NCBI GenBank assembly: GCA_007693505.1
Contig: REDL01000029.1
Coordinates: 1 to 35,718 of the forward strand
DNA length: 35,718 nt
Direction: 5' to 3'
From: Desulfovibrionales bacterium
Lineage (GTDB): Bacteria > Desulfobacterota > Desulfovibrionia > Desulfovibrionales > Desulfonatronaceae
How positions within the stretch are numbered: position 1 is the first letter of the stretch; every line of letters starts with the position of its first letter. The notes beneath the pieces were generated by a model. The model was not told where the DNA came from, did not search any database, and saw only the letters and a list, made by a program, of their open reading frames with translations. This document shows positions 8,513 through 28,540 of the stretch, one piece after another. The position numbers and the translations under genes are program-made.

Positions 8513-8534
8513 CGACTATCCTCCTCATTTTTAT

Positions 8535-8584: not shown

Positions 8585-8589
8585 GTGTT

Positions 8590-8703: not shown

Positions 8704-8711
8704 ATATCAAT

Positions 8712-8762
8712 CCCCGACGCTGGAGCGTCGGGGGCTATGTTCCCACGCTGGAGCGTGGGAAC
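8712..8762. repeat. REP palindrome pair R4 (inverted)
   Basis: Variable hairpin CCCCGACGCT/AGCGTCGGGG (8712-8733), then the constant hairpin GTTCCCACGCT/AGCGTGGGAAC (8739-8762). Inverted relative to R3. The 86 bases up to R5 hold no gene. Confidence 0.85.
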
Positions 8763-8848
8763 AATCGGTACGGAGTGAAATCTTTCATAATCACGGAGCG
8801 ATGTGAACGGGTTCATGCCGTGATGTCCTCATGATCAGATATTTTATC

Positions 8849-8895
8849 GTTCCCACGCTCCAGCGTGGGAATGCAGCCCAGGGCGCTCCAGCGCC
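8849..8895. repeat. REP palindrome pair R5, downstream of RAYT
   Basis: Constant hairpin (8849-8871) followed by the variable GGCGCT/AGCGCC hairpin (8881-8895). It lies 8 bases past the RAYT stop and faces R6 on the other side of the gene. It is nearly identical to R3. Confidence 0.85.
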
Positions 8896-8903
8896 TTGTG
8901 ATA

Positions 8904-9437
8904 TCAGCACCAGGGATCAATCTTGATCAGTCCCTCCTGCCCAAGATAGTTGCGCGCACTGGAATACCGCCAATGCTCGGGAAGATCGACATAGCCACGT
9001 TTCACCGGATTGAAATGGATATATTCCAGCTTTTGCCGCATCATGTCTTCACTGTACACCATTTCAGCATGGGAACCCTCCTGCCAGAACTGGTATTCCC
9101 GGTCACGCTTGTGTGCCTGTTTTGCAAACCGCATCCGAATCAGAAGCCGTTCCGCCTTGCTGGTTTCCAGCAATTCAATAAGCCGGGCTGCAGTGTAGGA
9201 CTTGAAACTGCCTAGGCACTTGTCCAAACGGGGAGCCTGGGCCACAAAATGCAGGTGGTTTTCCAAAATCACGTAGCCATAGATCTGTAAGCCATCATGC
9301 AGGCGCTGATAGGTCCAGCTGTCGAGAATGATTTGCACCGCGTCGGGACGTGTAAAAACGGGCAGCCATTCAACAACGGTGCAGGTCAAAAAATGAGGCT
9401 TGTCCGGCTCCTGAATGACATATCGGCTTCTAGCCAT
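8904..9437 (-). CDS. REP-associated tyrosine transposase (RAYT, Y1/IS200-like)
   Basis: The 177-residue protein is a Y1 transposase domain. It has the early strand KPHFLTCTVVEWLPVF, the metal-binding HUH motif in ENHLHFVAQ, and the C-terminal RAYT signature EYIHFNPVKRGYVDLPEHWRYSS. RAYTs nick and join single-stranded DNA at REP hairpins and are usually single-copy domesticated genes. Inverted REP pairs R5 and R6 flank this one within 10-25 bases, as expected for its substrate. The unit sits between the toxin-antitoxin/methylase genes and the helicase, so it may have inserted into a once continuous operon. The ribosome site is weak. Confidence 0.92.
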   Translation of the reverse strand: MARSRYVIQEPDKPHFLTCTVVEWLPVFTRPDAVQIILDSWTYQRLHDGLQIYGYVILENHLHFVAQAPRLDKCLGSFKSYTAARLIELLETSKAERLLIRMRFAKQAHKRDREYQFWQEGSHAEMVYSEDMMRQKLEYIHFNPVKRGYVDLPEHWRYSSARNYLGQEGLIKIDPWC

Positions 9438-9457
9438 GCCTGTACTCTCTCCATTCG

Positions 9458-9506
9458 CGACGCTGGAGCGTCTGGGGCTGCGTTCCCACGCTGGAGCGTG
9501 GGAACG
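9458..9506. repeat. REP palindrome pair R6, upstream of RAYT
   Basis: Variable hairpin CGACGCT/AGCGTC (9458-9474), then the constant CGTTCCCACGCT/AGCGTGGGAACG hairpin (9481-9506). Inverted relative to R5. It lies in the 93-base gap between the helicase stop and the RAYT start. Confidence 0.85.
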
Positions 9507-9530
9507 ATCGGCGGGGGCTCCCGGGCTCCT

Positions 9531-13112
<3,582 letters not shown>

Positions 13113-13373: not shown

Positions 13374-14387
13374 CTAAGCGGCTTTCTTGTAATTCTCCAG
13401 CGCCGCGAAATAATCCGTCAACTGTTTCAGCATCTTCGCATCGCGCTTGCAACGGCTTAGCGTGATGAACTGCTCACTGATCTCGCCGGGCGTCAGATCT
13501 TTCGACCCATGGCCATACTTCTTGGCCAAATACATCTCATAGAACTCCACCTGACCCCCCAGGCCCAGAGTCCGCAACACGCCGAAAAGGTCACCAACTG
13601 ACGTCCCCCTCTCCGTCCGTGGTTCCACCTTCGGCGGAGCGGGCATCTGAACGACATTCCGGGCTGGTTTGGGATCGACCGGGTGGTCGTCACCGTTGCC
13701 GTTAACTGGCTCGCCGTTCAGCCACGCAATCAGCTTCTTGCCGGTCTCTTTGCCAGGGGTGAAGTAACTCCCATCGAATAACCCCGTCCTGTCCTTCGTG
13801 GCCGTGGCAATGTGGCCGTCAACACTCAACTCCAGGACGGCAGTGAACTCGTACTCCAGGCCGTCTCTCTGAATCGGTGCCAGCCCGATCTTCACAGGCT
13901 TGGTCTTGCCCGTGCGCTCATCTTTCACGACTTCCCAGGCCGTCTTGCTGCGGATCGTCGCGATGATGTGCAGGGGTGCTCCGAGCATGGCGTCGACCAG
14001 GGCATTGTGCTTCGGCGAAGCCTCCCTCCAGGCCGCGAAGTTGTTCTTCACAGCCTGCGTTGCCCGGTCAACGAACTCCAGGATGCCCCCTTCGCCTGCC
14101 CAGGCATGGGTCAGACTGTCGATAATCAGGACGTCATATCCTGCCTCAGCCGCGCCCTGGATGGCTTTGACGTACCGGGCAGGGTCGAACGGGGGCGTCA
14201 GTTCGGCCACGTCGTAGGCACACAGGTCCGCATAGAGAGAGCCGCTACCGCGCTCCGTGTCGAGCAGGGCGATCTTGCCACCGAGGCCCTGGGCGATGAG
14301 CAGGGCGGAGTAGGTCTTGCCGCTGCCGCTAGGGCCGATGAGACCAAGGCGGATTTTGGATTGCTGCCGTTTGGCTGGTGTGAACAT
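13374..14387 (-). CDS. RecA-like AAA ATPase, Sak4-like (AAA_24)
   Basis: The 337-residue protein starts at 14387 behind a perfect AAGGAGG; a longer frame to 14438 crosses a hairpin and is rejected. Walker A GPSGSGKT lies at 18-25, the ALLDTERGSGS strand follows, and Walker B YDVLIIDSLTHAW is at about 84-96. This matches phage 'nucleotide-binding protein' AAA_24 ATPases, related to Sak4. Sak4 proteins are RecA-fold single-strand annealing/recombination factors that work with phage SSBs. The C-terminal 70 residues are helical and preceded by a proline-rich linker. Its neighbours gp157 and RadC, and the SSB-like protein upstream in the set, support a recombination role. The exact activity is inferred. 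Confidence 0.8.
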   Translation of the reverse strand: MFTPAKRQQSKIRLGLIGPSGSGKTYSALLIAQGLGGKIALLDTERGSGSLYADLCAYDVAELTPPFDPARYVKAIQGAAEAGYDVLIIDSLTHAWAGEGGILEFVDRATQAVKNNFAAWREASPKHNALVDAMLGAPLHIIATIRSKTAWEVVKDERTGKTKPVKIGLAPIQRDGLEYEFTAVLELSVDGHIATATKDRTGLFDGSYFTPGKETGKKLIAWLNGEPVNGNGDDHPVDPKPARNVVQMPAPPKVEPRTERGTSVGDLFGVLRTLGLGGQVEFYEMYLAKKYGHGSKDLTPGEISEQFITLSRCKRDAKMLKQLTDYFAALENYKKAA

Positions 14388-14418
14388 GTGGTGCCTCCTT
14401 ATCTTGGGGTTTTGGAAA

Positions 14419-14454
14419 CAAAACGGCCCGCCGCTCAATGTGAACGACGGGCCG
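14419..14454 (-). terminator. Leader hairpin before Sak4-like gene
   Basis: The stem CGGCCCG/CGGGCCG is followed on the minus strand by TTTTGTTT. It lies between the gp157 stop and the strong ribosome site of the Sak4-like gene. It has the form of an intrinsic terminator but sits inside a co-directional gene run, so it could be an attenuator. It belongs to the hairpin series described in the findings. Confidence 0.65.
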
Positions 14455-14483: not shown

Positions 14484-14975
14484 TCAGTTTATGACGAGGG
14501 ACTGCTTCTCGACGATCTGTGCACCGGGTACGGCCTGACCCTTCTTGAGCACGTCGCGGATTACCGACTTCCGGGGCACATACTCGATCCGGGTTTCCAC
14601 GAACTGACTGGGGAGTTCCCGCAGGTCCACGATCTCAACGGACGACGACTTACGCAGGAACAGGGTGGACTTCACGCCTTTGATCCGCTGAAGACCCTGC
14701 TGCTGGAAGATTCCGGCTAGGTACTCCCGAAACAGGATCAGCCTGGATTCCATCGCCTTGCGCCGGGAGCGGATGCGGTCCTCCTCGCTCTTCAGAAATT
14801 CCACTTCGGCCTGCCTCTTGCGCACAGCATAGGCCACCGCGTCGGCCTTCTCGGCCTCGGCTATGGCCAGTTCATCAAGATAGGTCAGGGCCGCCTGCTG
14901 CTGGTCCTCTCCGAGTTCCTCGCTCACAGCCAGGATGTTTTCGATCTCTTCCTCGATTCCGATCAGGGTGGTCAT
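14484..14975 (-). CDS. Siphovirus gp157-family protein
   Basis: The 163-residue protein fits the Siphovirus gp157 family. It has an acidic N-terminus and a long central coiled coil (AIAEAEKADAVAYAVRKRQA onward, about 40-90). A C-terminal beta segment follows (KGVKSTLFLRKSSSVEIVD, then LPSQFVETRIEYVPRKSVIRDVLKKG). Members sit in phage replication/recombination modules and are linked to host resistance in lactococcal phages; their biochemical role is not settled. The start follows AAGGAGG and has its own leader hairpin. The gene lies between RadC and the Sak4-like ATPase. Confidence 0.85.
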   Translation of the reverse strand: MTTLIGIEEEIENILAVSEELGEDQQQAALTYLDELAIAEAEKADAVAYAVRKRQAEVEFLKSEEDRIRSRRKAMESRLILFREYLAGIFQQQGLQRIKGVKSTLFLRKSSSVEIVDLRELPSQFVETRIEYVPRKSVIRDVLKKGQAVPGAQIVEKQSLVIN

Positions 14976-15060: not shown

Positions 15061-15486
15061 CTACAGCAGCCCCTGAGCCTGGAAGGAATAATGCCCGGTG
15101 CGACTGATGATCACATGATCCAGGAAGCGTACATCGAGCACCTGGGCCGCCTTTTGGAGCCTGCGGGTGAGTTCCTGGTCCGGGATGCTGGGGCTGGGGT
15201 CGCCGCCAGGGTGGTTGTGGGCGACGATGATCCCGGAGGCCTGCTTCATAAGGGCGAGACGCATGATCTCGCGGATGTAGACGGGTGTCTGGTCAACTGT
15301 CCCTTTGCTCACGACCCGCCTGGCCATGACGTTGTTCTTGTTGTCGAGCAGGAAGAGCACGAAGTATTCGATCTTCCTGTCCCGGTACGGAAGCATCTTC
15401 ACCACGACATGCTCGGGATGCGACAGATTCTCGCAGGCCGGTTCGACAGCGTACAGCTCCGCCAAAAGATCTCTAACCTTGTGCAT
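15061..15486 (-). CDS. RadC-like JAB-domain protein
   Basis: The 141-residue protein is essentially only the RadC JAB/MPN domain, shorter than chromosomal RadC (about 220) because the N-terminal HhH part is absent. The metal-binding JAMM motif is complete: H90-x-H92, S100 and D103 in HNHPGGDPSPSIPD. The upstream strand carries VVSKGTVDQTPVYIREIMRLAL. Short RadC proteins of this kind are common on phages, satellites and integrative elements; their role is not established. It precedes gp157 in the same orientation. Upstream, the PEP-CTERM insert separates it from the VWA gene. Confidence 0.88.
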   Translation of the reverse strand: MHKVRDLLAELYAVEPACENLSHPEHVVVKMLPYRDRKIEYFVLFLLDNKNNVMARRVVSKGTVDQTPVYIREIMRLALMKQASGIIVAHNHPGGDPSPSIPDQELTRRLQKAAQVLDVRFLDHVIISRTGHYSFQAQGLL

Positions 15487-16061: not shown

Positions 16062-16895
16062 ATGAAAAAATTAATTCTGGTCTTGGCCACTTCCTGCGCT
16101 TTGTTTTTTTTACTAGCGGTTGGGAATGCCTTTGCAACTCCTCTTGAGTACAAATTTACATTCACCGGTGCAGACCTGCTGAATAATGTCTTTGTTTCTG
16201 GCGCTGACGGCTCCACCCCGGTTGACAACGATCTTTTCAACGGCGCGAGATTGTTGCGTGTCGGAGCAAATCCAAACCACGCAGATGTCGCACGGACGTA
16301 TGTTGCAAGCCAGCATACAACATTCCAAAAACGTTGGGATGAATATGCTGCAAATGATTACTTTCTGTACGAATTTGCTCTTTGGGGTTGGGATGGATTA
16401 GGTGCTGGATGGGGCGAAGATTTCAAGCCTACCGAATGGTTAAGCCATTCAGGAGAAGGGGCTGCTGCTAACTGGAATACCAGCTTGCTAACGTGGCCTT
16501 GGGGAGTTCCTCCTGCTGGCTACATTACAGATCAACGACCTGACTGGGAGGCTGACTGGCCAGACGGACGAATTCTTCTGAACGATTCAGCTAGTTGGAG
16601 TAGTTATATCTTTACTGCTAATGTACTTATTGATCCAGTTACTGGATGGTGGGGACAAGACGTAGGAAATGCCCCAAATGATCTATTAATCCCTGAGCTT
16701 ACTATCTGGTTTGGTGGATATATTTATGGGTGGGATGCAGATGCTTCTGCTTGGGATTATCACCTCTATGAAGGTAACATCACTCTTACCGGAGACCAGA
16801 TTAATGTCGTCCCCGAACCCGGCACCATCGCCCTGCTGGGCATCGGCTTGGCCGGCCTGGGTCTGTACGGATACCGCCGCAAGAACAAGGCATAG
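16062..16895 (+). CDS. PEP-CTERM sorting domain protein
   Basis: The 277-residue secreted protein has a signal peptide (MKKLILVLATSCALFFLLAV, cleavage near NAFA-T) and the C-terminal PEP-CTERM signal: VPEPGT, a hydrophobic helix ALLGIGLAGLGLYGY, then RRKNK. PEP-CTERM proteins are processed by an exosortase and usually linked to exopolysaccharide or biofilm matrix. The middle is rich in Trp, Asp and Asn, with no known domain. CGGAGG eight bases upstream supports the start. It is a single plus-strand gene among minus-strand phage-like genes, more AT-rich than its surroundings and followed by its own terminator, so it looks like inserted cargo. No exosortase is in the window. Confidence 0.9.
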   Translation: MKKLILVLATSCALFFLLAVGNAFATPLEYKFTFTGADLLNNVFVSGADGSTPVDNDLFNGARLLRVGANPNHADVARTYVASQHTTFQKRWDEYAANDYFLYEFALWGWDGLGAGWGEDFKPTEWLSHSGEGAAANWNTSLLTWPWGVPPAGYITDQRPDWEADWPDGRILLNDSASWSSYIFTANVLIDPVTGWWGQDVGNAPNDLLIPELTIWFGGYIYGWDADASAWDYHLYEGNITLTGDQINVVPEPGTIALLGIGLAGLGLYGYRRKNKA

Positions 16896-17009: not shown

Positions 17010-19046
17010 TCACTGTGAGATGAGCAGCCCCTCCAGCAGCCGAAACGCCTTCTCGGGCAGTTCCCGGACATCCTTAAGGAGCTCGATCCGTGGGAACAGT
17101 TCAGGGTGTCGCACGTCCTCGATGCCCAAGGTCATAACCTCGATTTTGAGGTCAGTGGCCTCCCTGATCGCAGCCACTGCGCTCTCGCCATCGTTCGGAT
17201 CGCCGTCAGTGAGGATGATCACGATCTTTCTAGGCTCCGGCAGGCTGACCATTTCGGTCAGAACATACCGGAGAGACTCTGCCAACGGAGTTCCGCCTCT
17301 AGCAGCGGGCGGCCAGGGCAAGGCCGAAGCGGGTCTCTGGCCGTGCAAGAGTACAGGATCAACTTGAGTAGCGGGCACTCCTGTAGCCGGATCGCATGTG
17401 GTGCTCCGGTAAAAAGCCGGAAAGACCGTAAGACCCAGATTCACGCCACGGATCGGTGACAAGGCCTTGACCAGGGCCATGCACACGTCTCGGGTGATGG
17501 GGAAGCGGTCCCCGCTGCGCATGCTGCCGCTGTTGTCCACCAGCAGATGGATCGCCGTATTCACCTGGCGCACCTGGTCATTGCGAAGGAACAGCTTCGA
17601 CTCGCCGGTCCTGATCCGGTGCAGCCGGGACCGGGCAATGCGACTGCCTGCCGCGCTGGGTTTGGCGTGATCCAGTGCCTGGGCTTGGAGCAGTCCACGG
17701 AGCTTGCCGGACAGTTTGGCCACCACTGACGTCGATGGACTGACCTGATGCTTGCGGTAGCCGAAGTCAGGCAGTGTGGATTGTTTCGTGGGCCTGGCTA
17801 TCCTGATGGTGCCGGGATCAAGGCCAAGGTCAGCCTCACGCTGTTGCACCAGGGCCTTCAGTTGCTCGCCAAGGTCCGCCTGCTCATCCTGGGATTCCAG
17901 CGCCTGGATCACAGCTTCCCGGACTGGATCGGGTAGGGGCGCATCCTCATCTGGTACTGTGACCGAGCCGCCACCGGTGCTGTCAGCCACGTCTCCTGCC
18001 TCGGCGTTCACATTGCCTGGACTGCTTGCGGGGTCGGTCCCGTCGCCGTCAACATCGGCGTCCTGCTCGACTGAATCTCCAGAGCCATCGCTTTCCTGCT
18101 GACTGGAATCCCCACTGTCTTCTTGCGGTTCATCCTGCTCACCCTGGCCATGGTCGGCTTCTCCATCCTGGCCGTCTCCGCCATCACTCTCAGGGCTACC
18201 AGGCTGGCCCGTATCGCCGTTCTCGCGCCCTTTGTCCTCGCCAGGCATGTCAGGCTCAGGCTCGCCTTGAGGGCCTTCAGGGGCGTCCTGGGGCGCTTCC
18301 TGGGGTTGGTGGTCCTCCTGACGTTCCGGTTCCGGTTCGGGCTCGGGCGGTTTCTCCTTGGCCCTCTGCTGAAGCAGGTCCACGATCCGGCCAACGATGG
18401 CAACAACGTCTTCCGTGCTGGTTGCTGTCTCAATGTCGCTGATCAGGGTGAACAGATCGCGCTCCAACTCCGGGCCGAACGTCTTGAGGAACTGCTCCCT
18501 GGTCTTCAGGGCCAGGTCGGCGACTTCGGGCTGACCAAGGTGCAGTGTTCTGAGAACCAGCGAGACGTAAGCCGTGATCACCGCTTCGGGCGGAGCGTCT
18601 GGGTCCAGCTCGAACACTCCGGCCTTGGTCTTGCGTAGCTGGGAAATCAGGACTCTGAGGTTCGTGGCCATGCCGGGGTAGAGATCGGCCATGGCCTTCT
18701 CGATCCGCACGTCCTCCAGAATGTTCCAAAGGCTCTTCTGGAGCGGGCTCTCCCTGGGGATGGTGTTGAGGTTCGTAAGCCGGACATGGCCTACCTCGTG
18801 GTCCAGATAGCCCCTGACGATCCAGGAGTTCTCCTTGCTTGTCAGAGGCATGACCACGGTCTGGCCGTCCGTGCTGGCAGTGCCGTTGCCGCCAAAAACG
18901 ACCTTCACCCCGTGCTTCCTCCCCAGCCCGGCGGCAAGAACCGCGAGCTGGGATGGTGTCAGGGCCTTTGGGGTTGCCATCGGTGTGGCCTGGGCCTGCG
19001 CGGCCAGCCGTGACAACTCTGCTTCTACCGAATGGTGTTGTAGCAT
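17010..19046 (-). CDS. CobT-like VWA protein with HExxH motif
   Basis: The 678-residue protein has three parts. Residues 30-130 carry HEVGH (83-87) followed by NILEDVRIE (108-116), the pattern of a zinc metallopeptidase-like helix and third ligand seen at the N-terminus of CobT-type VWA proteins. Residues 230-370 are a very acidic, Pro/Gly/Ser-rich linker. Residues 495-678 are a von Willebrand A domain with MIDAS residues DNSGS (504-508), T586 and D614. Such VWA proteins pair with MoxR/CobS-type AAA+ ATPases, here encoded two genes upstream. The CobT resemblance does not imply cobalamin synthesis, as no cob genes are nearby. Start from AAGGAGG; 11 bases separate it from the DUF3150 gene. Confidence 0.85.
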   Translation of the reverse strand: MLQHHSVEAELSRLAAQAQATPMATPKALTPSQLAVLAAGLGRKHGVKVVFGGNGTASTDGQTVVMPLTSKENSWIVRGYLDHEVGHVRLTNLNTIPRESPLQKSLWNILEDVRIEKAMADLYPGMATNLRVLISQLRKTKAGVFELDPDAPPEAVITAYVSLVLRTLHLGQPEVADLALKTREQFLKTFGPELERDLFTLISDIETATSTEDVVAIVGRIVDLLQQRAKEKPPEPEPEPERQEDHQPQEAPQDAPEGPQGEPEPDMPGEDKGRENGDTGQPGSPESDGGDGQDGEADHGQGEQDEPQEDSGDSSQQESDGSGDSVEQDADVDGDGTDPASSPGNVNAEAGDVADSTGGGSVTVPDEDAPLPDPVREAVIQALESQDEQADLGEQLKALVQQREADLGLDPGTIRIARPTKQSTLPDFGYRKHQVSPSTSVVAKLSGKLRGLLQAQALDHAKPSAAGSRIARSRLHRIRTGESKLFLRNDQVRQVNTAIHLLVDNSGSMRSGDRFPITRDVCMALVKALSPIRGVNLGLTVFPAFYRSTTCDPATGVPATQVDPVLLHGQRPASALPWPPAARGGTPLAESLRYVLTEMVSLPEPRKIVIILTDGDPNDGESAVAAIREATDLKIEVMTLGIEDVRHPELFPRIELLKDVRELPEKAFRLLEGLLISQ

Positions 19047-19057
19047 TTACACCTCCT

Positions 19058-20029
19058 TCAGAACCAAGCGTCGGGGAGCCTGGGCTGGGTGCTGGGCTGG
19101 GAGATGGCCGGAGGAACAATGACCGGCTGCGGGGCCGGAGTCTCGGGCTGGGCAGGAGCTATGGTGTCGGCGCGAGGCTGGGGCTGCTCGTATGTGAACG
19201 TGTAGTCACGCCCTTGCTCAGCGGCATCCAGAATGTCCTTGAGAACGTCCGGGCTTTTCAGTTGCACCAGCAGGCGGGTCAACTTGAAGAGCGCAGTGCC
19301 GGTGAGTGCTCCCCCGGAATCGCGCTGATCCAGGAAGGTCTGAAGTTCAGCCTCAATCACGGACACGCCGTGATTGACGAAAGACAGGCCGCGAAGCTTC
19401 TCGGCCAGACGATCCAGGCGGTTCAAGTTCTTGAAAGTGGCCCGCTCCCTGTCTCGCAGGCTGTTGTAGGTTTCACCAGCAAGGATGCTGATCTCCCGAA
19501 GCATGGTGCCGGTCAGGTCCGTCGTGAGGACTTCGGCGAACTCCAGGTCATTCTCCGCCGAACTCATCCTGAAGCAGCGCCAAGTGAAGCCGAACTTGCG
19601 TTCAATGCTGGCCGGCGTCTCCAGGTAGGGTCGCAAGATGGACGCCCAGCGCCTGTTCTTCTCCAGCCAGGCGTTTTGTTCCCGGTGGAAGTCCGCCAGG
19701 AAGCGGTCCCGCTCTGTTTGGAATTCCCTGGCCAGGTCGCCAAGTGCGTCCTCGATCTCAGCCTTGCGGGCCTCCGGGGCAATCCAGATCTTGCCGGAGT
19801 AGAGCGAGAGGGCCACGCCTTCGAGGTAGGTCACGGCCTTGGTCCGCACCGCCTGAATGGGCTTGAACGCCTCCCTGTTGTGCAGGCGTTTGGAGCCAAG
19901 GCTGACAAGCTCTTCCGGTGGAAGCTCGACCCCGGCGAAGTCCTCGGGCTTGAGGTTCTTGCTGCCGGACCAGCTTTTGATGTCCAAAATCAAGCCCAAG
20001 CTGTTTGCGAAGATGCGGTCTGTTGTCAT
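19058..20029 (-). CDS. DUF3150 protein
   Basis: The 323-residue protein fits DUF3150: an alpha-helical protein with a Trp-rich N-terminus (LILDIKSWSG), a charged helical centre (about 95-230) and a proline-rich tail. It recurs between a MoxR/CobS-like ATPase and a VWA protein on plasmids, phages and integrative elements. No catalytic motif is visible, so an adaptor or substrate-binding role in the triad is likely but unproven. AGGAGG precedes the start. Only 11 bases separate its stop from the VWA start, so the two are surely co-translated from one message. Confidence 0.8.
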   Translation of the reverse strand: MTTDRIFANSLGLILDIKSWSGSKNLKPEDFAGVELPPEELVSLGSKRLHNREAFKPIQAVRTKAVTYLEGVALSLYSGKIWIAPEARKAEIEDALGDLAREFQTERDRFLADFHREQNAWLEKNRRWASILRPYLETPASIERKFGFTWRCFRMSSAENDLEFAEVLTTDLTGTMLREISILAGETYNSLRDRERATFKNLNRLDRLAEKLRGLSFVNHGVSVIEAELQTFLDQRDSGGALTGTALFKLTRLLVQLKSPDVLKDILDAAEQGRDYTFTYEQPQPRADTIAPAQPETPAPQPVIVPPAISQPSTQPRLPDAWF

Positions 20030-20054
20030 GTGGTCCTCCTGTGGTCAGGGGTTA

Positions 20055-20090
20055 GAAAAAACGAACGGGCGGCCAGATACTGACCGCCCG
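20055..20090 (-). terminator. Hairpin between AAA+ and DUF3150 genes
   Basis: The stem CGGGCGG/CCGCCCG, with inner CAG/CTG pairing, is followed on the minus strand by TTCGTTTTTTC. It is a textbook intrinsic terminator inside the AAA+/DUF3150/VWA run, 26 bases before the DUF3150 start. It probably acts as an attenuator that sets the ratio of ATPase to its partners. Confidence 0.75.
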
Positions 20091-20130
20091 CTTGCCTCGG
20101 GGTGTGGTTTTGGTGGTTGTGCATCACCTC

Positions 20131-21069
20131 CTACAATTCGGCGTTGAAAATGCGCTGGAAGGTCTCCGCGAAGATCGGCCTGCCCTCGGTGCTGGACTTG
20201 TTGACCACCACGTATTTCAGGGCATGGCCCAGCGGGTTCTTGATCCGGGGCACCTTGCGGAAAAACTGCGCCGCCTTGGCCCACTCGACCAGCTCCCTGG
20301 TGCTGAGCGTGTCCGCGATCGGGTTCTCTTCCGCCGTGTGCATCTTGCGAATCTCACCGGCGAAATTCACCATCTGCTCGCTGATGTCCCGATTGCCCAG
20401 GAGCATTTCCAGGATGTCGATCTCCACGTTGGGCTCTGGATAATCCAATAAAAACGTCCACCTGAGCCTATTCATGAAGGCCTTGCTCATCTTGAGCGTC
20501 CCGGAATAGCCGCTGGCCTCGCCGTCACCCTGGCCGGTTGTGTTGGCAGTGGCGATGAATCGAAAGTCGGGTTCGGGGTGGATCACCTCACCGCTGTTGA
20601 CAGACAGGGTGAGCGGACGACCATCAAGGACCGTGTTCAGGCCGACCAAGGTTGAAGGGTCCACAAGGTCGATCTCGTCGAACAGGAATACGCCGCCAGA
20701 CTTCATTGCCTGGGGGAGCGGGCCGTACTCGAACGTGAAGCCCCCGCCGGCGTTCGGCACGTACTGGCCAATCAGGTCGATCAGCTCAAGTCGATTGTGT
20801 CCCGTGACCGGGAAGACCGGGGCGTTGCTCCGGGCCGCCACCTCGTTGACCAGGGAGGACTTCCCCGAGCCGGTGGGTCCGCTGATCAGGCAGGACATGC
20901 CGCCGAACTGCCACCAGCCCAGGAAGTCAGCCGTGACCTCGGGCCGAAAACGGTAATCCGTGACTGTGGGCACGTACTGCTGCCAGGAGTGCTTTTCCCG
21001 GACCGGCCAAGGCACAGGCGGGAACGAGGCGTGAAATAGGGACTGAACTGTCGGTGCTGTGTTCGTCAT
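20131..21069 (-). CDS. MoxR/CobS-like AAA+ ATPase
   Basis: The 312-residue protein is a MoxR/CobS-clade AAA+ ATPase: Walker A GPTGSGKS (64-71), Walker B LFDEID (129-134), sensor-1 ATANT (173-177) and an arginine-finger region NRLRW (200-204). MoxR ATPases remodel protein complexes together with a VWA partner, here the gene at 17010-19046. The start overlaps the stop of the 80-residue gene by 4 bases (ATGA), and an AAGGAGG site lies inside that gene. Residues 1-50 are an N-terminal extension without a known motif. Cobaltochelatase function is unlikely in this context. Confidence 0.88.
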   Translation of the reverse strand: MTNTAPTVQSLFHASFPPVPWPVREKHSWQQYVPTVTDYRFRPEVTADFLGWWQFGGMSCLISGPTGSGKSSLVNEVAARSNAPVFPVTGHNRLELIDLIGQYVPNAGGGFTFEYGPLPQAMKSGGVFLFDEIDLVDPSTLVGLNTVLDGRPLTLSVNSGEVIHPEPDFRFIATANTTGQGDGEASGYSGTLKMSKAFMNRLRWTFLLDYPEPNVEIDILEMLLGNRDISEQMVNFAGEIRKMHTAEENPIADTLSTRELVEWAKAAQFFRKVPRIKNPLGHALKYVVVNKSSTEGRPIFAETFQRIFNAEL

Positions 21070-21308
21070 CGGACCTCCTTTTGTTGATCATTGAGTTGTT
21101 CAATTTGAGATTCGAGCACTGCCGCATACCCAGTGCCGCCTGCGGAATCGATGTGTCGGAGAATATCCAGCTGGACACGATTGATAGCCTGCTCGACGAC
21201 GCTGGACCGGCAGGGGGCCGTCCCATTGCGAGAACTGGCGTGTTCGCGGAACAGACTGTTGATTTCGTCAACCGAAAGGTCAGATACGTCGCGTCCAAAA
21301 ATGTGCAT
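21066..21308 (-). CDS. Hypothetical protein, 80 residues, coupled to AAA+ gene
   Basis: The start at 21308 is set by AAAGGAGG; a longer frame to 21494 has no site and overlaps the next gene. The protein begins MHIFGRDVSDLSVDEINSLF and ends in a helical, Gln/Glu-rich tail (LESQIEQLNDQQKEVR). No family recognised. Translational coupling to the AAA+ ATPase suggests a small partner or adaptor of the triad. Confidence 0.7.
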   Translation of the reverse strand: MHIFGRDVSDLSVDEINSLFREHASSRNGTAPCRSSVVEQAINRVQLDILRHIDSAGGTGYAAVLESQIEQLNDQQKEVR

Positions 21309-21330
21309 GCTTCCTCCTTTCGTTGCTGAG

Positions 21331-21501
21331 CTAAGATGTGACCTGCACGGGATGACTGACTGGACGATAGGACTTGGAGCCCTTGGACCGGATGACGATG
21401 GGCGCGTTGCCGATGTTAATCGCTCCGGGATGGGGCTTCGGGTATCCACCGCGTGGGCGACGGAAGAACGAGCGGTTGAATTGAGCTTCGACATAATTCA
21501 T
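21331..21501 (-). CDS. Hypothetical basic protein, 56 residues
   Basis: The start at 21501 follows a perfect AAGGAGG. The protein begins MNYVEAQFNRSFFRRPRGG and is basic and Pro/Gly/Arg-rich with a short beta-like segment (GNAPIVIRSKGSK). It may bind nucleic acid, but no family is recognised. It lies 22 bases before the 80-residue gene and directly behind a very stable hairpin. Confidence 0.6.
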   Translation of the reverse strand: MNYVEAQFNRSFFRRPRGGYPKPHPGAINIGNAPIVIRSKGSKSYRPVSHPVQVTS

Positions 21502-21527
21502 GGCGGCCTCCTTGAGTTTGTAACGAC

Positions 21528-21568
21528 GAAGGCCGCACACACTGGACAATCCAGCGTGCACGGCCTTC
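21528..21568 (-). terminator. Long leader hairpin before 56-residue gene
   Basis: The outer stem GAAGGCCG/CGGCCTTC is continued by CAC/GTG and CTGGA/TCCAG pairs around a 3-base loop. It is the most stable member of the series. It lacks a U-tract, so it may be an RNA structure that protects or regulates rather than terminates. Confidence 0.65.
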
Positions 21569-21609
21569 AACAAGTCGATTTCTCCGACTCAGCGCCGGAA
21601 ATTGGGCGC

Positions 21610-21707: not shown

Positions 21708-22160
21708 TTAGAAGGGGACTTCCGATGTCTCTTCGGCGGTGGCGGCAGCGGGCCGTCTGGCCATGTCCACCATCTCCTTGAAGCCAGTCCCGGCAGCTAC
21801 GAACGGCTGGAAATCAAGAACCGTGTAGTCTGCTTCACGATTGACGTTCACGCTGAACCTTTGACTGCCGTAGCGATCAACGTAGTGCGAAACACGGCAT
21901 CCATTCAGCTCGATGAGGGCGCTCCTGCCCTCCAAGGCCTTGTGCGCCGCCTCGCCAATGCCGTTCCAGAAATTCACTCGCAGGACGATCCGCTCGCCGG
22001 TATTGTCGTCCGTGGCCAGCAGATAGGTGACATAGCGGCTCCGCTTGTTCTCATCGCCGGGATAGAACTTCGAGAACTCGGGATTGCCGGTCCATCCGCG
22101 AGCGGTGCAGAGTTCAACAACTTGGCCGGTGACGGGATTGGTGATCGTTTCGATTTTCAT
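21708..22160 (-). CDS. SSB-like single-stranded DNA-binding protein
   Basis: The start at 22160 has AAGGAG seven bases upstream; the longer frame to 22415 runs through the neighbouring gene and is rejected. The 150-residue protein has an OB-fold-like middle (RYVTYLLATDDNTGERIVLR, NFWNGIGEAAHKALEG, LIELNGCRVSHYVDRYGSQ), much as in SSB proteins. It ends in an acidic tip TSEVPF, comparable to the DDIPF tail by which SSB recruits partners. It probably coats ssDNA for the Sak4-like ATPase. Direct family membership is inferred; other phage OB-fold proteins are possible. Confidence 0.6.
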   Translation of the reverse strand: MKIETITNPVTGQVVELCTARGWTGNPEFSKFYPGDENKRSRYVTYLLATDDNTGERIVLRVNFWNGIGEAAHKALEGRSALIELNGCRVSHYVDRYGSQRFSVNVNREADYTVLDFQPFVAAGTGFKEMVDMARRPAAATAEETSEVPF

Positions 22161-22272
22161 GCTTTTGCTCCTTGTGTGTTTGGTTGATGCGGTGGTTAGC
22201 GGTTGGCTGGAAACATTGACTGCTGACAACGGTTGCTGATTCCGACAGGGCCATCTCGAAAGGGCCAAGACG

Positions 22273-22494
22273 CTACGCCGCCTGAAAGTCAGGCAGATCG
22301 ACGTGCTCGTCGTGATCCCAAAACTCATCGAGGTACGCCTCGCACTTCGCCATGCTCCAGCGCAGTGCCGCCTCCTTGACGCATTCGAAACAATGCACCG
22401 TCTCGCGACGGACAACCCCGTTGGTGTCCATCCGTGTGAGTGTGGCTCCGCAGGAAAGCGTCTGGCCGCGGTAACGAATTTGATTTGTGCACAT
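22273..22494 (-). CDS. Small Cys-containing, zinc-ribbon-like protein
   Basis: A 73-residue protein with Cys at the start (MCTNQIRYRG), SCGATL, and HCFECVKE further on. The spacing could hold one zinc ion. The C-terminal half is acidic and Trp-rich (AYLDEFWDHDEHVDLPDF). TAGGAG lies six bases before ATG. It is the first gene of the minus-strand set and has its own strong leader terminator. A regulatory role is possible but not shown. Confidence 0.6.
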   Translation of the reverse strand: MCTNQIRYRGQTLSCGATLTRMDTNGVVRRETVHCFECVKEAALRWSMAKCEAYLDEFWDHDEHVDLPDFQAA

Positions 22495-22886: not shown

Positions 22887-22956
22887 ATTGACTTATAGAT
22901 GGAGGCTATGGGAAAGATTCAGGAAATTAATAATGGAAAGAAAGGAGGGTGCAGCC

Positions 22957-23457
22957 ATGCAGAAGAAAGGCGGTCGGCCACGAAAGTTCAAGAATAGAAG
23001 GCAGTTGGAAGAGGCGATAGAGGCATACTTTGCCAAATGTGACGAAAGTTGCATTCCGCCTACAATGCCTGGCTTAGCCATGGCCTTGGGTTTCACTAAG
23101 GCAAGCAGCCTGGATTACATGGAGAAACAGTCGGCGGCGAGATCACAATTTTCTGCGGCGATCCAGAAGGCGCGGTTGATCATTGAGGCATACTGGGAGT
23201 CGGTTTTGGTCAGTATGGACTCGACACCGGGGCAGGTGCAGGGGGCGATTTTCGTGCTGAAGAACTCGTTTGGGTGGAAGACTCCGAGAGAGGCAGGAGA
23301 GGCGGGGGATGTAAAGGCTGGTGAGGTGACGGTGCGGGAGCTTGGGATGGATCAGTGGACGGCGATGTGGAGAGAGGATGTTTTTCGGAGGAATGGAGAG
23401 AGGGAAAATCGAGAAGCTTTATCATCAATTTTGAAGGGGAGTTTTTTTTTGGGGTGA
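22957..23457 (+). CDS. Terminase small subunit-like (gp3-type) DNA-packaging protein
   Basis: The 166-residue protein starts behind AAAGGAGG; an upstream ATG at 22888 lacks a site. It begins with a basic GGRPRKFKN stretch, then the family pattern: QLEEAIEAYFAKCDE, GLAMALGFTKASSLDYMEKQ, AAIQKARLIIEAYWE and GAIFVLKNSFGWK. This is the DNA-recognition subunit of the P22 gp3-like small terminases that select viral DNA for packaging. No large terminase, portal or capsid gene is present, and the gene lies 154 bases from the tRNA attachment fragment. Phage satellites place a terS of their own in such a position to redirect helper packaging. A remnant prophage is the alternative. Confidence 0.82.
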   Translation: MQKKGGRPRKFKNRRQLEEAIEAYFAKCDESCIPPTMPGLAMALGFTKASSLDYMEKQSAARSQFSAAIQKARLIIEAYWESVLVSMDSTPGQVQGAIFVLKNSFGWKTPREAGEAGDVKAGEVTVRELGMDQWTAMWREDVFRRNGERENREALSSILKGSFFLG

Positions 23458-23483
23458 GAGGTGGGGGATTTTTCAGGAGGCTA

Positions 23484-23516
23484 TGGAAGTACCGGTGGAA
23501 GTACTTCTGGAAGTAC
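23484..23516. repeat. Three TGGAAGTAC repeats spaced by 12 bp
   Basis: Exact copies of TGGAAGTAC start at 23484, 23496 and 23508. The regular 12-bp period lies between terS and the tRNA fragment. This fits binding sites for an excisionase, integrase arm domain or initiator, but no protein is identified. Confidence 0.7.
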
Positions 23517-23610
23517 TTTGCTGTATTCTGAGGTTTTTCATGTATCTTTATGCATCTGCAACTATTTGAAAACATTGGGTGGTGCCACTTCTCAGGCGTA
23601 AAGAGTCAGC

Positions 23611-23655
23611 CCTTTCACGCCGGTAACAGGGGTTCGAATCCCCTTGGGGACGCCA
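23611..23655 (+). other. tRNA-Glu(UUC) 3' fragment: attachment site of integrated element
   Basis: From CCTTTCACG onward this is the anticodon loop (anticodon TTC), the 3' anticodon strand, the variable loop, a perfect T-arm (AGGGG TTCGAAT CCCCT), the 3' acceptor strand TGGGGAC, and GCCA. The matching 5' acceptor GTCCCCA and D-arm are absent upstream. The crossover therefore falls at the anticodon loop, the standard outcome of tRNA-targeted integration. The intact tRNA should lie to the left, outside the window. Confidence 0.85.
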
Positions 23656-23664
23656 ATTAAAATC

Positions 23665-23705
23665 AAAGGGTTGCAAGCAATCATGCTTGCAACCCTTTTT
23701 CTTTT
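23665..23705 (+). terminator. Intrinsic terminator of tRNA-Glu locus
   Basis: A 14-bp perfect stem AAAGGGTTGCAAGC/GCTTGCAACCCTTT with a 6-base loop and a T-rich tail, 9 bases after the CCA end. This is probably the native terminator of the original tRNA gene, left on the chromosomal side of the att site. Confidence 0.85.
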
Positions 23706-24015
23706 CCAACCCTATTTCCAACCTCCAAGGCCAGTTTCCAACTTTTTCGCCTTCAGATTTTCCTTGGCATGAATTTCCATCTGAGGCGATTCTGGATGTC
23801 TTCCAGCCCGGTCGCCCCGAGCCCTCGCCCAGCCCCATCCAGACCGCGTTCCTCGCATCGCCCCTCACCCCCGCGCAGCCCAGCCGACCACCCATGTCAT
23901 CTCAGCCGCCCTTGGCCCCCAGCCCGCCGAGGCCAGGACTGAGGCGGCTCCGGTCGTTGGTTTCCTGGCCGTTTCTCATACTGCGACCCAGTCATCCAGT
24001 TCCATAGTCCACACC
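23706..24015. other. Gap between tRNA terminator and repeat; doubtful small ORF at its end
   Basis: About 310 GC-rich bases without a convincing gene. On the minus strand a short frame from 24143 to 23976 (MSAKALAELGLATPRRC at its start, MELDDWVAV at its end) has plausible codons, mostly inside the repeat. In the left repeat copy the same frame is broken by one missing base, so it is at best doubtful. No ribosome site is seen. Confidence 0.4.
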
Positions 24016-24511
24016 ATGCCCGGAAACGAGGCACCCATGCGCGCCGCAAGGCGTGTGGTGCCCTTGGCATTCCAGATGTGCCTTGGCAGGGGGCACCGCC
24101 TCGGAGTCGCCAGGCCAAGCTCAGCAAGCGCCTTGGCGGACATGGCAACGTCTGTCCCGCCCCCCGCTCCCGATCCACCCAGCCGCTGACCGCCTCCCGC
24201 GAGCCCTGCCCGCCGTGGGTTGAAGCCCGTACAGGGCAACCTCGTGCCTTGCAGGATGGCCATGCGCCAGAAAGAGAAAGGCCGCCCATCCCAGCAGGGC
24301 AGGCGGCCTTGTTCGTGTTGGAAGTGCTTTTCTATCCACGGCGAAGGCGATGGTGTTCTATGGGGCGCATGAAAAGGCGGGCTTGTTCCCGCAGTCGCTT
24401 CCGGCTATCCGCTGGGTCAGGGAGTTCCACATGACATATCCCCCAGTCGCATATCGACCAGCTCCGCCAAGACACCACACCAAGCGACCCGTCAGCCTGC
24501 CGCTCTACCTG
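24016..24511 (+). repeat. Right copy of 0.5-kb direct repeat
   Basis: Same orientation as 1-506. The match runs through the GGCC hairpin, the leader and the first ~26 codons of umuD. Here the gene continues intact. The two copies differ by scattered substitutions and small indels, so the duplication is not recent. Confidence 0.85.
24278..24310. other. Perfect GGCC hairpin upstream of umuD
   Basis: The stem AAGGCCGCC/GGCGGCCTT. On the minus strand it is followed by TTTCTCTTTC, resembling the leader hairpins of the 13.4-22.5 kb set. It lies 121 bases before the umuD start. Confidence 0.6.
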
Positions 24512-24877
24512 TCAACCGTTGCCGCTGGCTTCCCGTCACCTGCCGGCGATTATTTGGAAAAACGCCTGGATATCAACGAGCACCTGATCCGGAACCAGGC
24601 GGCGACGTTCCTGGTCCGGGCATCCGGCGACTCGATGAAGGACGCTGGGATTCTGGATGGGGATATGCTGGTCGTGGACCGGTCAGTTCAGGCCACGGAC
24701 GGCAAGATCGTGATCGCCCTGTCCCACGGCGAGTTCACGGTGAAGACGTTGAAGCAGCGGGACGGGAAGGCGTACCTGGCTCCGGCCAATACCGCCTACC
24801 CGGAGATCGAGGTGACGCCGGAGATGGAGTGCGTGGTGTGGGGTGTGGTGGTGAGCGTGATCAGGGAGTTGGGGTGA
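24431..24877 (+). CDS. umuD: UmuD-like translesion polymerase subunit (S24 peptidase)
   Basis: The 148-residue protein matches UmuD end to end. It has an Ala32-Gly33 cleavage site in AAGFPSPAGDYLEKRLD, catalytic Ser68 in RASGDSM and Lys105 in GEFTVK. The Ser and Lys are 37 residues apart, as in E. coli UmuD (60 and 97). RecA-stimulated self-cleavage would yield UmuD', the accessory subunit of DNA polymerase V. GGGAG six bases before ATG supports the start; a longer frame from 24350 includes leader sequence. No umuC follows: the next gene is the convergent hsdR. It must work with a UmuC encoded elsewhere or has another role. Confidence 0.92.
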   Translation: MTYPPVAYRPAPPRHHTKRPVSLPLYLSTVAAGFPSPAGDYLEKRLDINEHLIRNQAATFLVRASGDSMKDAGILDGDMLVVDRSVQATDGKIVIALSHGEFTVKTLKQRDGKAYLAPANTAYPEIEVTPEMECVVWGVVVSVIRELG

Positions 24878-24995: not shown

Positions 24996-27900
24996 TTAAG
25001 CTGCCCTCGCCACCACACCGCTATGCGCTGCCCTAAGGGCATCGAATATCCCATCGACAACCTCTTCCTTACCCAGGAACAGTTCCTCTGGCCCCCCGGC
25101 GTGAATATCGCTGAAAGGTGGGTCGTAGAGGGCCTTGGCTTCCATTGTGCCCCGCATGGTGAGCTGATCAATGACCATCTCGATGAACCGGATTTGTTGC
25201 GCGGTCAAGCTGCGGTCGTTCAGGAAATCTGAGAAGGCAGCCTGGGCGGCGGACCTGTCCATTCCAACCAGGGTGCGCACGAAGTAGGCCAGGGACGGTG
25301 CCTGACTGCGAACCAGTAGGCTGGAGAGCAGGGATTCTCCCTCGTCATCGCCGATTTCGGCCAGGGTCCGCTCCAGGCCCTGCAAGTCAGTTTCGGTGAG
25401 GGGCTGATTGGTGCGCAGGCGGTGGATCACGATGTGGTCCAGGTGGTTGCGCAGGAAGTCCTTGACCTTCTTTTCGTATTGGGGACCGGTCATCCGGGGC
25501 ATGGGAACCGCTTCAAATGCTTGTGATCCGACAATTTCGTCCTGAAAGCTGGTGTAAACAATATTGCGATTCTTCTTGTCCAGGAATGGAACCAGGCCGC
25601 GCAGGCGCAAGCGTATTTCTTCAAGGCCAGCCAGACCGATATCTTCCCAGAATTCACTTTCCTGTAGGCGAACCAGATAAGCCAGTTCTCGGGCCACGGC
25701 AGGGATGGCAGTCTTGTCTTCCAGAAGCATGGCGATGTCCACGACCCGCTTGCGTTTGCTCTCAAAAACACCGGCATTGCCTTCTGAAAGTGCAAGCTGC
25801 ATCTGTAAAAGGGTCAGATCGAACAGACGGGATTCGATGTCGTCGGTGGGCATTTCGCTGGGCAGCCCCGCAACTTCTGATTCCAGGGTTTGCCGATCCG
25901 TGTCAGTCAACTGCTCCCAGACGCCACGATTTTGAAAACGCTCAACAGACTCCAGGTGCATGCGTACGATGAAGTTATCCCGGTTCATGGCCGAGACTTC
26001 ACCGTAAAGTCCTTCGGTGAGTGGTCCGCGAAGATGTGCATCCGGGTCCAGGTCAGGCGTATTTTGAATATGCCCGAGAAGCTGAACACGGGAACGGAAT
26101 AGGCGAACGCCCAGGGGAGCGCCTTCCATGGCGTTGATCCCGTCAGGGTTCTCCTGGAAAAACTCGAAGTTGAAGCAGAAGTCAAAAACCCGGAAGTCTT
26201 CTTTGTCCAGACCAGGGGCGAACAGGTTCAGGCAGAGCCGGGTTCCTCGTCCGATCATCTGCCAGAATTTGATTTTGGAGTAGACCGGCTTGAAAAAAAC
26301 CAGGTTGGCCACCTCCGGGATGTCAATGCCTGTGTCCAGCATGTCCACGGAAATGGCGATAATCGGGTACTTGTCTTTCTGGGAGAAGTCGTCGATCAGG
26401 CTTTGTGGGTATTTGGCCTTGTTGTCGATAACCCTGGCGAAGTGTCCGGCATAGTGCGGATAGTGATGGTTGAAGCGTTCCTCAATGAACTTGGCGTGGT
26501 CGTGGTTACGGGCAAAGATGATGGTCTTGGCCAGCCGGTCCCCGCCCTCTACTTTGTGGCCGTGCTCCATCAGGTACTTGAGCACCTTGTCCACGGTGTC
26601 CGTGTTGAACAGCCAGTTGTTGACGGCGCTGGCATTGACAAAACTCGGCAGCTTGCCGTCATCGTTGTCGTCGCCCCAATCCAGACTCTCCCACTGAGCT
26701 TTTTCCTCATCACTCAAAGAGTCGTAGTCGATCCCCTCCCTGGGAAATCGGAGGTCCACCTGCTGGACTTTGGGCGGCACCAGATAGCCGTCCTTGACTG
26801 CCTGCTCCAGTTCGTAGGCGTCCGTGGGAACGCCGGGTTCCAGGTCAAAAAGCTCATAAGTGTTCTTGTCCACCTCTTCCCTGGGGGTAGCGGTCAGGCC
26901 GACCAGCAGGGAGTCGAAGTAGCGAAAGATCGCTCCGTATTTTTGATAGACAGAACGGTGAGCCTCGTCGATGATCACCAGATCAAAATGACCGACGCTG
27001 AACCGGGCTTGGCCGCCCTCGGTCTCATCAATCAAACCCATCATGGTGGGATAGGTGGAGACGTAGACCCGCCCCTCGGAATCCTTGTCCGTGACCAGAT
27101 TCACCGGGCTGGAATCAGGCAGATGCGTCTTGAAAGCATTGCATGCCTGTTTAACCAGGGATACCCGGTCCGCCAGGAACAGAACTCGCTTCACCCATCC
27201 GGCCCGCTGCAACACGTCCACCAGGGAGATGACCGTCCGGGTTTTTCCAGAGCCCGTGGCCATAACCAGCAGGGCCTTGCGGCGGAACTGAATGAACTGC
27301 TCAAAAATGCTTCCGATGGCTCTTTTCTGGTAGTATCTCTCGGCAATAGCGTCCTTGGCCTGGGCCACATCCAAGGATTTGCGCTTGGCTCGGCGCAAGA
27401 CAAGGCTGAATAACTCGTCCTTTTTGTAGAACCCAGCAACTCGCCTTGCGGGGTATGTCGTGTCGTCCCAGAGCCAGGTTGTATAGCCGTTGGAGTAGAA
27501 GATCACCGGGCGTTGACCAAACTTCTTTTCCAGGCAATCGGCATAGAGCTTGGCTTGCTGCTTGCCAGCCTCGGGATCAACCGTGGTGCGCTTGGCCTCA
27601 ATCACAGCCAGGGGCTTGCCGTCGTCTCCCCACAAAACGTAGTCCACAAAGCCGATGCCTTGCTTGTTCGGCATGCCCTGCACTTCGCACTCACGATCTC
27701 GGGACTTATCCAAAGGCCACCCGGCGCGGTGCAGTTCAACATCGATCAGGTATCGGCGGGTCTCGGATTCTGAATAGTCGTGGGTGTCGGGCTGCTGGCG
27801 TGTTTCGGCGCGGACCTTGGCCAACTGTTCACGCAGGGCCTGCAACTCTTCATCCAGGGCGTCTCGTTCCTGCTGACGCTTGAGGGCTTCCCGGCCTTGC

Positions 27901-28388
27901 TCGGCCAGTTTCTTTTCCAGGGCTTCCAGTTCCTTACGCGGAACGGCCTCTGCCTCACTGATCGGCGTTGGCACCTTGGCATCCTGCCAGGACAGCCCCT
28001 GGGGCAGGGCCTTGGGCAGATACGTACGCACCAGCCAGTGGCAGATGTGGTAGAGTTCCTTGACCACCTGCAAGGCGTCCAATTCCCGAATGGGTCGCGC
28101 ATTGTGGACGGCCTGGTTGCCCACTTTCTGGATGACCCGCGTTTTCTGATAGACGGCCTGAGGCAGGAGATTCTGGAAGGACGGCTCATGCAGCAGCGCC
28201 CCCAGAGTCTGGTCGTAGGGCATGCGCAGCCCCGCATCATGGCGGTACAGCCAGTGAACCCCAGCCTCCAGGGCAAAGCGGGCATGAAAACAGGCCGCGC
28301 GAGGATCGCCCTTGATATGGCCTTCCGCCTTGGTCGCGGAGTCGGCGATGGTCTGAAATTCAGTGGGCAGGAAGGCGAAGTTGCTCAT
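24996..28388 (-). CDS. hsdR: Type I restriction enzyme R subunit (HsdR)
   Basis: The 1130-residue protein has an N-terminal DUF4145/HEPN-like domain (1-120), a coiled coil (about 145-200), and an endonuclease domain with D249 and E264-A-K266 (PD-(D/E)XK). The helicase part has Walker A ATGSGKT (377-383), DEAH (474-477), GLTATP (about 497-502) and a second lobe with IGRGTRL. It is the motor and nuclease of the type I complex, cutting unmethylated DNA far from the recognition site. The start [11 protein letters not shown] is the usual one for this family; a frame to 28496 adds 36 residues without support. The ribosome site is weak. It is the last gene of the hsd operon. Confidence 0.95.
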
Positions 28389-28540
28389 TTTTTCTCTCAA
28401 AGAGGCACGGAGGACGAGGGGAAAAATTTGATTGTTCTTTTGCCAATGGCATTGCTGAAAATTAACTTTACAACCTTGCGTCAATGAACTGAACAACGCC
28501 GTGTTTCAACAATTTATTCCCAAAGTTGAACAGTTGGAAA

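Follow-up and report, generated by a model that had tools for sequence, protein, structure and literature searches.

The window examined here, the whole 35,718-nucleotide contig REDL01000029.1 of a Desulfovibrionales bacterium (GCA_007693505.1), carries on its minus strand three genes, referred to below as the triad, that encode a MoxR/CobS-like AAA+ ATPase of 312 amino acids (20131..21069; Pfam AAA_5 3.4e-22, CbbQ_C 4.3e-5), a DUF3150 protein of 323 amino acids ending in LPDAWF (19058..20029; Pfam DUF3150 8e-47) and a CobT-like protein of 678 amino acids with an N-terminal HExxH domain, a long acidic linker and a C-terminal VWA/MIDAS domain (17010..19046; Pfam CobT 3.6e-12, VWA 4e-9). A first-pass annotation had recognized the triad and proposed it as an undescribed system in phage or satellite biology or conflict. 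The Pfam matches confirm the three genes and their strand, and our survey of related loci ties them to annealing-recombination modules of mobile elements, in which DUF3150, the lambda-type exonuclease and a protein encoded after the ATPase (the post-ATPase protein) of one element share, as judged from their sequences, an element-specific C-terminal tail.

Profiles of the ATPase matched CobS (4.2e-62) and midasin (1.6e-100) in the PDB, as well as CbbQ and NorQ, and those of the VWA protein matched CobT (1.7e-28) and NorD (7e-14); by homology the two proteins belong with the CobS/CobT, NorQ/NorD and CbbQ class, in which a ring ATPase works with a VWA co-factor. In a fold comparison that bore on the VWA part and barely covered the N-terminal HExxH domain, the model of the VWA domain aligned with NorD from the NorQD complex (Z 21.3, root-mean-square deviation 2.9, 239 aligned), and the CobT alignment starts only after the HExxH part of the window-type protein. 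The window protein has HEVGH at residues 83-87, and H83, E84, H87, E111 and D112, together with the MIDAS residues D504, S506 and S508, are invariant across 43 aligned VWA sequences (42 of 43 non-redundant relatives chosen by a length of 500-640 amino acids, L094 being left out, plus the window). This pattern points to a likely metal site in the N-terminal domain of most VWA proteins, a domain which we take to be a gluzincin, with the downstream Glu presumably a metal ligand, and which may be proteolytic.

The AlphaFold2 model of DUF3150 (mean pLDDT 83.8) has a confident core, and residues 304-323 score below 50. The best match of its profile to PDB sequences had an E value of 0.36. No fold relative is claimed, as the best structural hit (Z 9.1 over 96 residues) was partial and helical and lay in a range common for helical models; the sequences of the DUF3150 structure alignment were picked by length, like those of the VWA alignment. 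No CobN was found in the genome of the window, which is 98.46% complete, so that a missed gene is possible (the control was found in 5 of 14), and no cob genes occur in the annotated stretches examined. The lack of a CobN match argues against cobalt insertion and agrees with the first-pass view that the triad has no cobalamin link.

Loci were scored with profiles built from the collected proteins, the denominators being the loci with enough flanking sequence, and genome-locus counts rest on the best 80 of 95 DUF3150 relatives from a scan of genome contigs (e.g. in Desulfovibrio, Nitratidesulfovibrio, Mailhella, Thiocapsa, Lamprocystis and Methylomonas) with a profile made from five close sequences. 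The ATPase gene lies upstream of DUF3150 within 4 kb in all 72 testable loci, and the VWA gene lies downstream within 5 kb in 65 of 67. An annealase (Erf or Bet/RecT) is encoded upstream in 59/61 loci, an exonuclease in 59/61 and both in 58/61, bearing out the idea that the three genes form one conserved machine with links to recombination genes; the triad was not found mainly beside cob or housekeeping genes in this neighbour survey, and its three genes are co-conserved. RadC is present in the window and in R997 and lies downstream in 14 of 65 loci, and an SSB gene lies upstream in 19 of 51.

The partners differ by type. The Desulfovibrio type has an Erf annealase (Pfam 1.6e-29) and a RecE-like exonuclease (phrog_434; 2.3e-8 and 9.1e-18 for two members), and Bet/RecT with a lambda-type exonuclease is found in most of the plasmid and integrative and conjugative element (ICE) types read, in Chromatiales and in Methylococcales. 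The IncC and pVAS114 regions have ssb, bet and exo placed between the ATPase and DUF3150 genes. Many plasmid types encode the post-ATPase protein, which is annotated as WGR in two; profile comparison shows those of R997 (6.6e-27) and V. tubiashii (1.6e-11) to be WGR-related and did not support such kinship for those of IncC, pVAS114, P. putida and Rhodoferax (4.1%). Given the conserved order and the linkage to annealase and exonuclease, the triad is an arm of annealing-recombination modules, including the ssb-bet-exo modules of SXT/R391 and IncC. A divergent DUF3150 at L056 (6757-9777) lies with a Sak4-like gene (47% to that of the window) and a PD-(D/E)XK nuclease, with no matched ATPase or VWA protein and no tail.

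The tail pattern was first noticed in a handful of loci and then sought in loci fetched later. In R997 the exonuclease and DUF3150 both end in SFYF and the post-ATPase protein in NYYF, and in V. tubiashii the corresponding ends are SAYF (exonuclease), AAFF (post-ATPase protein) and GAYF (DUF3150). P. putida has a non-aromatic version (exonuclease EAFCL, post-ATPase protein SAFCV, DUF3150 EEFCL), and further pairs are found in Pelobacter (WGR LTWDF, DUF3150 LTYDF), Rhodoferax (ILDF and PLDF) and Methylomonas (exonuclease DFWF, DUF3150 DYWF). When the DUF3150 tail of R997 was compared with those of 57 other proteins (from 58 of 78 annotated features), the exonuclease scored 23, the WGR-related protein 17 and the next best 3.

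The C-terminal residue of DUF3150 is aromatic in 95 of the 97 loci counted, which are the 80 from the scan and 19 hand-picked ones, less L086 and L105, which have no stop; some loci share one genome. The two others are L063 (EFCL) and L129 (possibly frameshifted), and L117, counted as aromatic, is a short copy of 277 amino acids ending in RKW; outside this count stand L062 (FGI, not aromatic) and the aromatic L067 and L069. Among 24 clustered DUF3150 proteins, a set without that of the window, L048, L052 and L056 are non-aromatic, and the divergent copies L048 and L056 have neither a matched ATPase nor the tail. Of the lambda-type exonucleases in the same operons, 39 of 43 end in an aromatic residue, as do 13 of 17 WGR-profile proteins; the comparison proteins do so in 3/41 (Bet/RecT), 0/31 (Erf), 6/95 (ATPase), 0/88 (VWA), 0/16 (RadC) and 13/31 (SSB). 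Over 18 annotated plasmid-type loci the figures are 16/18 for DUF3150 and 29/231 for the background of other proteins. A few Bet/RecT proteins have an aromatic tail too, unlike most annealases (L068 GNYF, L007 GSYY, L072 GSYY, L157 GVGF).

In another explanation, acidic-plus-Phe tails would imitate the C-terminal tip of SSB and bind host SSB partners or compete with SSB. Residues -4 to -13 are indeed more acidic than the first 200 (0.24 vs 0.15 in DUF3150, 0.23 vs 0.13 in the exonuclease) and some module SSBs end in IPF (L004, L071), but the matching is element-specific, tails such as GLW, SFYF, EFCL and LLMF depart from the SSB tip, and SSB tails do not track those of DUF3150, which makes such mimicry quite unlikely in our view.

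Matching within elements was measured in a pairing test in which a single locus stood for each DUF3150 cluster (45% identity) and own partners were compared with shuffled ones. Similarity over the last five residues was 12.8 for own exonuclease-DUF3150 pairs against 3.2 for shuffled pairs (fraction 0.0018, 6 clusters), and 12.7 against 0.7 for the post-ATPase protein and DUF3150 (fraction 0.0003, 7 clusters). With 23 rows, 7 clusters and nothing dropped, the post-ATPase fractions were 0.0003, 0.0001 and 0.0003 for 3, 4 and 5 residues, and a separate pairing test over the 18 plasmid-type loci agrees (fraction <=0.0001). The tails of Bet, ATPase, VWA, SSB, RadC and the RecE-like exonuclease were not significantly above shuffled in these tests, the ATPase coming nearest (0.07-0.23).

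As a control, exonucleases were taken from sources without a DUF3150 match, and 0 of 11 end in an aromatic residue. Five are from phages, two from viral contigs and four from three genomes; a YqaJ search of 148 genomes gave four matches in three genomes, and phage records were added. Absence of DUF3150 was based on tblastn for the phages, on profiles run over the available stretch for L158 and L159, and on a family search for genomes G356, G365 and G462, where no positive control matched, the same search having matched in other genomes. For L162 and L163 the profile-matched minus-strand open reading frame (ORF) was used; L154 and L156 (open ends) and L167, L169 and L170 (sequence ends before a stop) were dropped, and the viral L155, L157 and L009 (tails ESSYF, DSCFW and SLFW) have an ATPase adjoining the exonuclease and hence are not controls. 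Triad-linked and control exonucleases differ with a Fisher p of 1.4e-8 when related loci are treated as independent, and with p 4e-7 when only distinct tails are counted (26/30 vs 0/11 aromatic).

We propose that the triad serves mobile annealing-recombination modules as their remodelling arm, reading the C-terminal tails and remodelling or cleaving recombination proteins, a proposal about which we are evenly poised. Such a module would comprise an annealase and a 5'-3' exonuclease, to which some types add SSB and RadC. The ATPase ring and the VWA protein, with its MIDAS side, would bind the tails of the element as an address tag. Proteins bearing the tag would be stripped from DNA or pulled apart by the machine, and may be cleaved by its N-terminal HExxH domain. 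In this way the exonuclease could be taken off DNA ends or degraded once annealing is ready, limiting resection or allowing the annealing complex to be recycled. DUF3150 is likely to be the constant tagged adaptor or the first client; in the lambda-exonuclease type the exonuclease and post-ATPase protein bearing the same tag would be recruited directly, whereas the window version would have Sak4, gp157 and RadC as its partner set and the tag on DUF3150 alone. Towards a broader claim we are more sceptical, holding it only tentatively: that an element's own tag-directed AAA+ machine, possibly a metalloprotease, controls resection and annealing in transfer, with tag and reader co-varying so that it acts on its own proteins only. 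Co-variation is seen among the tails of the tagged proteins, and that of the reader would be part of the proposal.

The HExxH domain could also act differently: its removal of the conserved C-terminal peptide from DUF3150, exonuclease and post-ATPase protein could work as a switch. Its HExxH and E residues are conserved and there is a precedent in other ATPase systems, which associate with a metallopeptidase and proteins ending in FxSxx (PMC7159879), but FxSxx is a different motif and the VWA proteins of L008 and L055 are without HExxH, and we give this possibility little weight.

The tail data would also fit a tag for assembly, through which the three tail-bearing proteins (exonuclease, DUF3150 and post-ATPase protein) dock at one shared site, perhaps the ATPase-VWA ring, and build a single recombination complex that the ring loads or moves without any unfolding or cutting. 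In E. coli, double-stranded DNA recombination with SXT-Bet and SXT-Exo is about 50-fold weaker than with RecET or lambda Red (PMC3118119), and such weakness of the pair alone would fit a missing helper. The authors of that study explain the weak activity of SXT-Exo otherwise, the annealase is seldom tagged, as the Bet/RecT and Erf counts above indicate, and the invariance of HExxH suggests more than docking, so that we regard assembly without remodelling as rather unlikely.

Several observations weigh against the remodelling proposal. Direct tagging of clients is not general, as the exonuclease of the Erf type lacks the tag: RecE-like exonucleases have an aromatic end in 1 of 38 cases, and Erf-type operons tag DUF3150 alone. 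No shared tail is seen at L073 (exonuclease IYKYL, DUF3150 PFFY) or L135 (exonuclease DERPSP), nor at L008, L062, L067 and L069. The gene order has exceptions as well, with no VWA gene within 5 kb at L101 and L110, the VWA gene on the opposite strand at L008 and, among plasmids, no ATPase annotated in the stretch at L062 and L067. The full-length VWA proteins of L008 and L055, outside the aligned set, have no HExxH. Cluster numbers in the tail tests are small, the WGR proteins by themselves do not reach significance (fraction 0.18, 3 clusters), and the exonucleases used as controls are distantly related (profile E 9e-35 to 8.6e-7 for L158-L163). No module exonuclease was found in the window. 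Finally, deleting SXT genes of the module stretch lowers transfer 10-fold or less (PMC2791158).

The Erf-type loci scanned carry a GLW tag on DUF3150 only, save for one case in which an Endonuclease I homologue (L040:5472-6257) ends in KGLW like its DUF3150; this may be a coincidence and was left uncounted.

The deletions just mentioned include bet, exo, s067, s068 and s070 (PMC2791158). Since s066 is exo in SXT (PMC3118119), s067, s068 and s070 should fall in the module stretch. Genes that should belong to this stretch have already been deleted by others, so that the triad is not wholly undescribed; the shared tails are new. DUF3150 is absent by name from the literature searched, and in the available parts PMC2786100, PMC11541004, PMC3915882, PMC10539172 and PMC9709138 do not mention the triad. 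The literature on CobS, CobT, MoxR and VWA proteins in conjugative elements and on C-terminal tags in IncC and SXT, as far as available, yielded nothing on tails. Recombination by Bet and Exo is said to promote SXT/R391 diversity (PMC2791158).

The ATPase-DUF3150-VWA machine lies beside Bet and Exo, and DUF3150 occurs in more than 1000 plasmid records. IncC and SXT elements reportedly repair CRISPR-made breaks during conjugation, to go by the title of a paper, and the triad might bear on the poor performance of SXT-Bet and Exo alone in E. coli. The shared tails make two matters directly testable, namely which protein reads the tail and what becomes of an exonuclease without it.

In the window the LPDAWF tag is on DUF3150 only, no other gene having a matching tail, and DUF3150 is a single copy in the genome. 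Profile matches in the window are limited to ATPase, RadC, SSB-like, VWA, gp157, Sak4 and DUF3150, with no lambda-type exonuclease or Bet/RecT. The RadC-like JAB protein (15061..15486; Pfam 1.6e-38), gp157 (14484..14975; Pfam 2.4e-36; phrog_253, 'Mu Gam-like end protection', 3.5e-28) and the Sak4-like AAA_24 protein (13374..14438; Pfam AAA_24 1.3e-20; phrog_1366, unknown function, 4.4e-84; phrog_124, Sak4-like, 2.7e-9) are all on the minus strand, downstream of the triad, and the Sak4-like protein is probably the annealase or recombinase of the window's module version. A possible SSB-like protein (21708..22160, minus strand) is recognized by its C-terminal tip SEVPF; its start at 22160 was our choice within ORF 21708-22415. 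It has no significant Pfam match, and the SSB profile missed the ORF, which was matched only by a profile built from itself.

The direction of transcription said to be shared by this whole group holds for RadC, gp157 and Sak4 and fails for the gp3/TerS-like packaging gene found here (22888-23457), which is on the plus strand. That gene and an S24 peptidase gene on the same strand (both within 22888-24877) run opposite to the triad and are possibly a prophage remnant. A PEP-CTERM exported protein (16062-16895, plus strand) is encoded between the triad and the RadC/gp157/Sak4 group, and no family matched an 80-residue ORF at 21331-21573. An HmaABC defence system (HmaA helicase, HmaB methylase, HmaC ATPase; 1087-13112; PADLOC 1136 to 1679 bits) has two small ORFs between HmaA and HmaB, of which ORF 7950-8318 is weakly MazF-like (phrog_1936, 1.3e-5). 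A type I restriction locus (hsdR-hsdS-hsdM; 24996-33368) lies upstream of the triad; its hsdR and hsdS genes flank a Schlafen/AlbA_2 gene, and next to the locus is a sub-threshold NucS_C match (33365-34390). No tRNA gene was found in the 35,718-base contig, and a search for the TraI_2 relaxase family alone found none in the window's genome (0/1; contig 35.7 kb).

DUF3150 is found in conjugative plasmids and ICEs, and chromosomes of Desulfovibrionales, Chromatiales and Methylococcales carry it as well. With the window DUF3150 as tblastn query, matches occurred in 1077 of 72,556 plasmid records (960 are typed as conjugative) and in 1 of 50,697 phage records, a Salmonella genomic island that is ICE-like, with traN, ssb and bet. 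Two DUF3150 scans of viral contigs gave one partial locus and none, respectively, and an exonuclease scan gave six matches, of which three are pieces of 4.5-4.6 kb that encode ATPase, Bet and exonuclease. The near-absence of DUF3150 from phage and viral collections and its presence in conjugative plasmids, ICEs and chromosomes mean that the triad does not mainly belong to phages or satellites, contrary to the first-pass hypothesis, and for the host-conflict role suggested with it the sole support is the defence genes sharing the contig. We therefore consider it very unlikely that the triad is a phage or satellite conflict machine, or a viral-type CobST hijacking host CobN. Such a role would draw on the TerS-like gp3 and defence genes of the contig, on four short viral-collection contigs carrying module genes (L009, L155, L156, L157), on a metallopeptidase-VWA and MoxR pair of jumbo phages (PMC7824862) and on the proposal that viral CobST uses host CobN (PMC8651126), but the single phage record is an ICE-like island, the viral contigs are fragments of 4.3-4.6 kb, and the window's genome yielded no CobN.

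Within the class of the window, 90 of 348 genomes carry DUF3150, one of them with 7 matches. One genus of the class has 5 to 7 DUF3150 matches per genome (G102, G104, G114), and at L043 a second Erf/exonuclease start lies about 16 kb downstream of the first, which suggests repeated integrative elements. At L051 (10852-14792) the VWA gene is split, with a 438-amino-acid ORF between the pieces, and G108:C7:109468-110185 holds DUF3150 fragments containing stops.

Among known systems, the cobaltochelatase CobS/CobT pair has in common with the triad a CobS-like ATPase and a CobT-like VWA protein; unlike CobNST, the window's genome has no CobN that we could find, and DUF3150 sits between the ATPase and VWA genes. 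The NorQ/NorD and CbbQ/CbbO pairs likewise join an AAA+ protein to a VWA partner. Known pairs of this kind act on metabolic enzymes, whereas the neighbours of the triad are recombination proteins with shared tails. The jumbo-phage pair, compared by description only, resembles the triad in having an N-terminal metallopeptidase fused to VWA and a MoxR protein, but a role in virion assembly is proposed there, and the available part of that paper mentions neither DUF3150 nor a tail tag (PMC7824862). The MoxR-VWA-VMAP conflict systems (PMC7159879) are ternary, with VMAP as their third member. A further counterpart is the region of SXT/R391 ICEs and IncC plasmids in which ATPase, post-ATPase protein, DUF3150 and HExxH-VWA protein are encoded beside ssb-bet-exo, with RadC in R997. 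The window differs from it in that Sak4 and gp157 replace bet and exo, a post-ATPase gene is lacking, the contig yielded no transfer gene and the triad is surrounded by defence genes; the module order of ATPase, DUF3150 and VWA protein is the same.

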